A stretch of 64,000 nucleotides of DNA from Odiellus spinosus. Taxonomy: Eukaryota > Arthropoda > Arachnida > Opiliones > Phalangiidae. Shown here piece after piece: positions 44,249-45,361 of this stretch. The stretch is taken from the NCBI GenBank assembly GCA_963920705.1, contig OY987236.1:11704190-11768189 (forward strand), given 5' to 3'. Within the stretch, counting starts at the first letter, position 1, and each line of letters opens with the position of its first letter. Position numbers and translations under genes: made by a program. The notes beneath the pieces are model-generated. The model did not search any database and had not been told where the DNA came from. It saw nothing but the letters and a program-made list of their open reading frames with translations.

Positions 44249-45361
44249 ATGGAGTCAAAGAGTAGTTCGAGTGAGGAAGACCCAAGCCTTTCCCATTTTA
44301 ACAACAAAATAAAATCCGCCATAGTGGAAGAACTATTCAAGTGCGAGAAGTGCGAGAAGTGCGACAGACTTTACTCAACCAAACATCAATTAAATAGACA
44401 TATAGCGATAAAACACAATTTCGAATGCGAAAGAAAAGGTTGTGGTGAAACTTTCAGAAACATCAGCTTATTTAAATTCCACCTGAAAAAAATTCACGGG
44501 ATTCAAAAAACATTCGTGTGTAGTCAGTGCGGTTTCTCGTTTCAGAGAAAAAATGATTTAAAAAGGCATTCTGTAGTCCACATCGTAGACAAGAGCTTGA
44601 AGTGCGGAGAAGAACCGTGTGGTAACTCGTTCAAATACGAAAGTTCATTGGGGCGGCATGTACGACAAATGCATCGTGACTCAAAAGCATTCGAATGTAA
44701 TCATTGCGGTGCCTCATTCGAAAGAAAATCTCATTTACATAGGCATTTATCAGTAGTTCACGCTAAAGACACGCCTTTCAAGTGTGAAGTAGAACAGTGC
44801 GGTGAGTCGTTCAGAAGCAAAAAATCATTGGAAAGGCACGGAGAACAAATCCATCAAATATTCAAATGCGATCCATGCAATTCCACATTCGGATCAAAAT
44901 ACTTTTTAAATAAGCATTTAAGAGAAATACATACCGAAGAGGCTCAGCGCGACGAGAGCTCATCACGAGACAAGAACGCCAGTAAACTTGAACCATTTGA
45001 ATGCGCAAAGACTTACGAAATCGAACCATTAGACTTGTCTTTCAATAGTACTAAGTCAGGAGAACCAACCCAAGAGGATCAGCACGATGAGAACTCATCA
45101 CGAGGCAACAACGAGAGTATCTGCGACTTGGACAGCGAACCTTTTCGATGCGCAAAGACTTACGAAATCGAACCATTAGACTTGTCTTTTAAAAGTGCCA
45201 AGTCAGAAGAGGTACACACCCTAGATCAGCGCGATGAAAGTTCATCAAGAGCCTGCCATGGGAGAAACTTCGACTTGGACAACGAACCATCTGGATGCGC
45301 AAAGACTTACGATATCGAACCATTAGACTTGTCATTTAATAGTGCCAAGTCAGGAGAATGA
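44249..45361 (+). CDS. Seven-finger C2H2 zinc-finger protein with three CtBP-binding PLDLS motifs
   Basis: A single-exon frame of 370 residues, intact. The start is the ATG at 44249 (context AATAAAATGG); the frame extends 14 codons upstream but only to a TTG. Seven C2H2 fingers cover residues 35-228, at Cys pairs 35/38, 60/65, 91/94, 119/124, 150/153, 179/184 and 207/210, each followed by two His. Cys spacing alternates strictly x2, x4, x2, x4, x2, x4, x2. The C-terminus is a 49-residue (147-bp) repeat, three copies, each with CAKTY(E/D)IEPLDLSF; PLDLS starts at 260, 309 and 358. PxDLS is the known docking motif for the corepressor CtBP, so I infer a nuclear DNA-binding repressor. No orthologue name is recognised. 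It lies between tRNA-Ala copies 1 and 2. Confidence 0.9.
   Translation: MESKSSSSEEDPSLSHFNNKIKSAIVEELFKCEKCEKCDRLYSTKHQLNRHIAIKHNFECERKGCGETFRNISLFKFHLKKIHGIQKTFVCSQCGFSFQRKNDLKRHSVVHIVDKSLKCGEEPCGNSFKYESSLGRHVRQMHRDSKAFECNHCGASFERKSHLHRHLSVVHAKDTPFKCEVEQCGESFRSKKSLERHGEQIHQIFKCDPCNSTFGSKYFLNKHLREIHTEEAQRDESSSRDKNASKLEPFECAKTYEIEPLDLSFNSTKSGEPTQEDQHDENSSRGNNESICDLDSEPFRCAKTYEIEPLDLSFKSAKSEEVHTLDQRDESSSRACHGRNFDLDNEPSGCAKTYDIEPLDLSFNSAKSGE

Follow-up and report, generated by a model that had tools for sequence, protein, structure and literature searches.

The gene at 44249 to 45361 (+ strand) of the window, the 64,000-nucleotide stretch analysed here, is likely to code for a zinc-finger protein that binds DNA and that bears in its tail, to judge from the sequence, a putative CtBP-docking signal triplicated in tandem. 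It would be a natural counterpart of the vertebrate proteins in which CtBP binding at several sites is known. The best reading is that of a C2H2 repressor that would recruit the corepressor CtBP through three equivalent PLDLS sites, and we put its chances clearly above even.

Reading frame, zinc fingers and tail

The frame at 44249 to 45361 runs for 370 codons without an internal stop, giving a protein of 370 residues, and upstream of 44249 the same frame is already open from 44204. The Pfam family zf-C2H2 (PF00096) matched the protein at an E value of 2.2e-23 in six separate stretches. Counting by eye in the translation yielded seven C2H2 fingers, all intact, at residues about 34 to 229 (44348 to 44935, + strand), with CxxC and CxxxxC forms alternating along the array. 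The several C-X2-4-C ... H-X3-5-H fingers that characterise the C2H2 family are present, and the description of this gene in the first-pass annotation as one for a zinc-finger protein is borne out by the Pfam match, the seven fingers and the intact frame.

The second-best protein match in the same genome is 45% identical and lies over the fingers, and protein, DNA and tail searches of that genome found no close second copy of the 370-residue protein. TFIIIA in PDB entry 8ffz matched the protein at an E value of 1.3e-18, ranking eighth, below general multi-finger proteins. We take PF22110 to be the Pfam model of the TFIIIA-specific finger array; the Pfam matches at E values up to 1 included no TFIIIA model. 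A viral origin was rejected, as a scan of viral contigs, which detects close relatives only, returned 7 peptide-pattern stretches and no relative.

The C-terminal tail (44936 to 45358, + strand) consists of three tandem units, and the string EPLDLSF begins three times, at residues 259, 308 and 357, so that there are two full intervals, both of 49 residues (147 bp), and the linkers between the PLDLS motifs are 44 residues long. Exact PLDLS motifs occupy residues 260 to 264 (45026 to 45040), 309 to 313 (45173 to 45187) and 358 to 362 (45320 to 45334), all on the + strand, and are followed by F-N, F-K and F-N, respectively. A PxDLS-type ligand motif outside the fingers, a feature of CtBP-recruiting repressors, is therefore present, and the earlier reading of PLDLS as such a ligand motif, in three copies of EPLDLSF with a 49-residue period, agrees with the residue positions. 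Tandem Repeats Finder, unprompted, likewise reported an array at 44990 to 45358 with a period of 147 and 2.5 copies. Tandem duplication of a 147-bp unit evidently gave rise to the tail, and this array structure accounts for the equal spacing of the motifs. Since the second and third PLDLS copies come from duplication, the three motifs represent one independent origin rather than three. Unit 1 has a linker that falls 12 bp, or 4 codons, short of the linker of unit 2 (repeat family D4, with a spacing of 135 rather than 147). The second residue after PLDLS is K in copy 2 alone, as in the ligand form PxDLSxK quoted in the accessible part of one source (PMC9303524), a point that weighs against the CtBP reading. 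In a charge-hydropathy comparison, the composition of the tail places it on the side of disorder. The best match of the tail in the PDB, a Plasmodium surface protein at an E value of 0.042, was taken as chance, and kinship with any protein of solved structure was rejected.

After the TGA and outside the frame lies a relic of a fourth unit, comprising the linker part (45362 to 45426, + strand). The linker copy assigned to family D1 spans 45384 to 45452, with 72% identity over 69 nt. Local alignment of the relic scored 46, where the best of 300 shuffles reached 25, and the spacing of the relic, 128, is 19 bp shorter than the usual 147. No fourth PLDLS core was recognisable after the TGC of the relic, where 352 of 1,000 shuffles scored as high; either a fourth PLDLS has decayed or the duplication boundary falls after this TGC. 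The loss of the fourth unit from the frame means that the unit copy number is not stable. A possible 62-bp GT-AG intron (45349 to 45410, + strand), proposed from sequence only and in a stretch that is itself repeat-derived, would change the last residues to ...NSANEPFECTTTDEPKTL if spliced and would retain the three PLDLS motifs.

Upstream of the gene, a DNA search of the same genome identified a dispersed repeat (43600 to 43934, + strand) that ends about 315 bp 5' of the ATG and may start before 43600, where the query began. It recurs at 78 to 93% identity in at least 39 other places in the genome, with 40 of 508 candidates scored. Origin of the frame as a transposon protein was rejected: on the same 40 of 508 candidates, the other DNA matches listed all lay within query bases 1 to 344, upstream of the frame, the next protein match is the one of just 45% identity, and the tail search returned only the tail itself. 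From 41515 to 51218 (+ strand) there are eight tRNA-Ala (AGC) genes, four of them within a 323-bp tandem array at 50173 to 51253. Long minisatellites with units of 26 to 30 bp in about 11 to 37 copies lie at 2346 to 3082, 17934 to 18916, 36855 to 37545, 48266 to 48591 and 61420 to 62168, and several of them are open in more than one frame, giving spurious long ORFs. Two exon-like frames on the - strand, one with a TPR repeat (12363 to 12794; PF13414 over the cut-off) and one with no Pfam match at E values up to 0.01 (13355 to 13708), presumably resemble TTC17. Elsewhere in the genome, nine COX1-like rows on contig C17, at about 1.1 to 4.4 Mb, are likely to be mitochondrial DNA copied into the nucleus; both TAG and TGA occur in frame in four of them. 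COX1 (Pfam) is also present on a small contig, in a region that is open under the invertebrate mitochondrial code, with neighbours that we take to be ND2 and COX2.

Rarity of the motif and divergence of the units

When 40 residues surrounding the first motif were shuffled 200,000 times, PLDLS arose by chance in 0.0095% and PxDLS in 0.2% of the shuffles. A DNA pattern for all possible codings of EPLDLSF, apart from those split by an intron, had seven exact matches in the 443-Mb genome; three of the seven encode EPLDLSF, all of them here, and the other four encode different residues. The reversed pattern had five matches genome-wide. In a search of the same genome at E values up to 10, the tail matched itself and no relative elsewhere. 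C2H2 zinc-finger clusters were located by protein search at 21.79 to 21.83 Mb and 24.29 to 24.37 Mb of contig C5 and at 1.735 to 1.754 Mb of contig C14. No PxDLS outside the fingers was found in 41 zinc-finger frames of the genome (10,362 residues), each with at least three fingers and drawn from 20 of 60 chosen regions, including the frames sampled from the C5 cluster at 21.79 to 21.83 Mb and from the C14 cluster. The zero count is unsurprising by itself, because 23 permuted forms of the motif gave just four matches in all in the same 41 frames; PxDLS is simply rare among the zinc-finger frames of this genome.

Divergence between the repeat units, which the first-pass annotation had put forward as a check in the form of dN/dS, gave a divided answer. 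The comparison of units 2 and 3 showed 2 differing bases among the 42 of the core and 33 among the 105 of the linker (p = 4e-4), and with doubtful, possibly misaligned codons removed the linker count is 15 of 75 (p = 0.029), the boundary of the 14-codon core having been picked after the alignment had been seen. Over its three copies, the core shows a single amino acid replacement (E to D) along with two synonymous substitutions, and its pN/pS is 0, 0.28 and 0.14 for the three pairs, compared with 0.74 for the linker of units 2 and 3. These low core values weakly suggest purifying selection on the PLDLS motif. Against this, two or more synonymous changes among three in the core have a p value of 0.12, 19% of shuffles contained an equally uniform 14-codon stretch at some place in the 25-codon register, and pS between units 2 and 3 is 0.395 in the linker and 0.109 in the core. 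As the linker is more divergent at synonymous sites also, the contrast is unlikely to be due to protein-level selection alone, and gene conversion, uneven age or linker misalignment is a fair alternative cause.

These data bear on the possibility that PLDLS is incidental, a chance motif in a fast-evolving tail that was spread by recent satellite-like duplication, the protein being a zinc-finger factor of some other function with no reliance on CtBP. The single origin of all three motifs by duplication fits such a history, as do the abundance of tandem arrays in the window (38 rows, some overlapping) and the weakness of the conservation tests, in which the excess of linker over core divergence extends to synonymous sites. 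The rarity of PLDLS among the shuffles, the lack of PxDLS in the sampled zinc-finger frames and the smaller difference in core than in linker between units 2 and 3 speak against it, and we consider it unlikely, although deserving of weight.

CtBP in the same genome and comparison with known ligands

A conserved CtBP, the partner expected for CtBP-recruiting repressors, is encoded in the same genome, at 15.9356 Mb of contig C3. Its N-terminal lobe, with the ligand-binding cleft, aligned with CtBP1 of PDB entry 8ari, which we take to be the human protein, over 95 residues, 86 of them identical on a count of the alignment (E value of 1.3e-52). Two exon matches were scored at this locus, and one of them crosses TGA and TAA, which is taken as read-through into an intron. 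The accessible parts of three sources describe CtBP as a dimer or tetramer in which each subunit has a cleft (PMC12809078, PMC11187106, PMC2749851). In flies, according to the available text of another, CtBP is enriched by repression domains with PxDLS, which taken together were dependent on it, and 117 PxDLS instances were counted in transcription-related genes; the Snail domain was still active after mutation of its PxDLS alone or CtBP depletion, owing to a second corepressor motif that it carries (PMC9890238). The number of fly instances and the Snail exception mean that the motif alone is no proof of dependence on CtBP.

ZEB and zfh1 have a homeodomain between two finger clusters. The protein found here has a single finger cluster and no homeodomain among the 21 Pfam families matched at E values up to 1, and identity with ZEB/zfh1 was rejected. 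The likeness to ZEB lies in zinc fingers combined with three PLDLS-like motifs, which in ZEB fall within about 100 residues and each add to CtBP binding (PMC2749851). However, the middle ZEB motif is PLDLS and stands between two PLNLS, and the accessible part of that source describes no tandem sequence repeat, whereas here all three motifs are PLDLS and lie on one. Snail, Knirps and other fly PxDLS repressors share the pairing of a DNA-binding protein with a CtBP ligand but, in the available text on them, have no tandem repeat of the motif described (PMC9890238). The S-CAP proteins, relatives of Hairless in myriapods and chelicerates, are corepressor adaptors with at least one CtBP motif; as far as the accessible text goes, they contact DNA via Su(H) only, with no finger array and no unit repeats described, in contrast to the fingers and repeat found here (PMC6777938). 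A synthetic construct, 4xPLDLS, with four PLDLS motifs and 15 flanking residues per side, is described in the available part of its source as an EVI1 competitor (PMC11095456). It resembles the tail in placing a PLDLS unit with flanks in tandem, the tail being natural and made of three 49-residue units.

RAI2 is similar in that an identical PxDLS-type motif recurs along a disordered chain, and RAI2 binds CtBP multivalently. In the accessible part of its description, two identical ALDLS motifs lie 26 residues apart with a 21-residue linker, and there is no folded domain; the two sites gained about fivefold in affinity, cooperativity was thought unlikely by the authors, and CtBP tetramers were polymerised into filaments with relief of repression (PMC11187106). 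Identity with RAI2 was rejected on the basis of that description rather than by direct alignment, since the build here differs, with three PLDLS motifs, 44-residue linkers and seven fingers. A RAI2-like or decoy action is another matter: the tail could cross-link CtBP tetramers or soak up CtBP, and repression would then be antagonised, possibly at finger-bound sites. Consistent with this are the three identical motifs on a tail of disordered composition, the relief of repression by RAI2 and the success of 4xPLDLS over EVI1 in competition for CtBP. However, the linkers here are more than 20 residues longer than that of RAI2, and spacing may matter, and a DNA-binding array is present where RAI2 is described without a folded domain. 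We regard this action as slightly less likely than an incidental origin of the motif.

The claims that three motifs could engage CtBP with high avidity and that the protein is an unusual way to build a repressor fared differently. High avidity is an unsafe inference, given the modest RAI2 gain and the accompanying polymerisation and derepression. Unusualness holds only in part, since ZEB, RAI2 and 4xPLDLS are already multi-motif. Among the matches listed in the literature, a body that takes in few subscription papers, no zinc-finger protein had its PLDLS unit duplicated in tandem, and the string EPLDLSF was absent from the literature searched. Multi-motif CtBP binders are thus already known, and what appears to be new is a tandemly duplicated PLDLS unit in a C2H2 protein.

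Proposed action of the protein

The canonical PLDLS ligand motif, the C2H2 array, the tail of disorder-like composition and the conserved CtBP of the same genome are all consistent with a repressor that recruits CtBP. For the C2H2 repressor that we favour, the fingers would carry the protein to DNA in a sequence-specific manner, as is usual for the family. One PLDLS ligand with its flanks was multiplied by the 147-bp tandem duplication into three equivalent putative docking sites, and the disordered tail would serve as a docking platform for the CtBP corepressor. Each PLDLS is predicted, by analogy with known complexes, to dock in the N-terminal cleft of CtBP. Since CtBP forms dimers or tetramers and each subunit offers one cleft, three ligands should make CtBP locally more concentrated at the target site and may cross-link its particles there. 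By general polymer reasoning, linkers of 44 residues are of sufficient length to span adjacent CtBP layers 5 nm apart. We infer that the 370-residue protein is expressed, binds CtBP, represses and bridges CtBP oligomers. The direction of the effect is less certain, as three-site binding in ZEB and the two sites of RAI2 had different outcomes in the two published cases, and by analogy the extra motifs could either strengthen repression or sequester CtBP.

A further possibility, doubtful in our view, is that the protein acts as a DNA-anchored polymeriser of CtBP, in which the fingers would fix the sites and the three PLDLS motifs would bridge successive CtBP tetramers into local filaments or foci. 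That the gene is unexpressed or decaying, with a shrinking tail (the fourth unit being out of frame) and motifs without present function, is highly improbable, for while the short-spaced relic past the stop and the dispersed repeat ending upstream of the ATG would fit, the 370-codon frame, the seven fingers and the three motifs are all intact, and synonymous differences have accrued between the units without a stop or frameshift.

If CtBP is bound, the protein would offer a natural test of a repeated corepressor ligand on a DNA-fixed chain, the alternatives being stronger recruitment, as in ZEB, or polymerisation and derepression, as in RAI2. It would also illustrate how duplication of a unit can multiply a short linear motif in a single step. 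Should the CtBP polymeriser reading be true, tandem duplication of the motif would have joined RAI2-like polymerisation to sequence-specific DNA binding.
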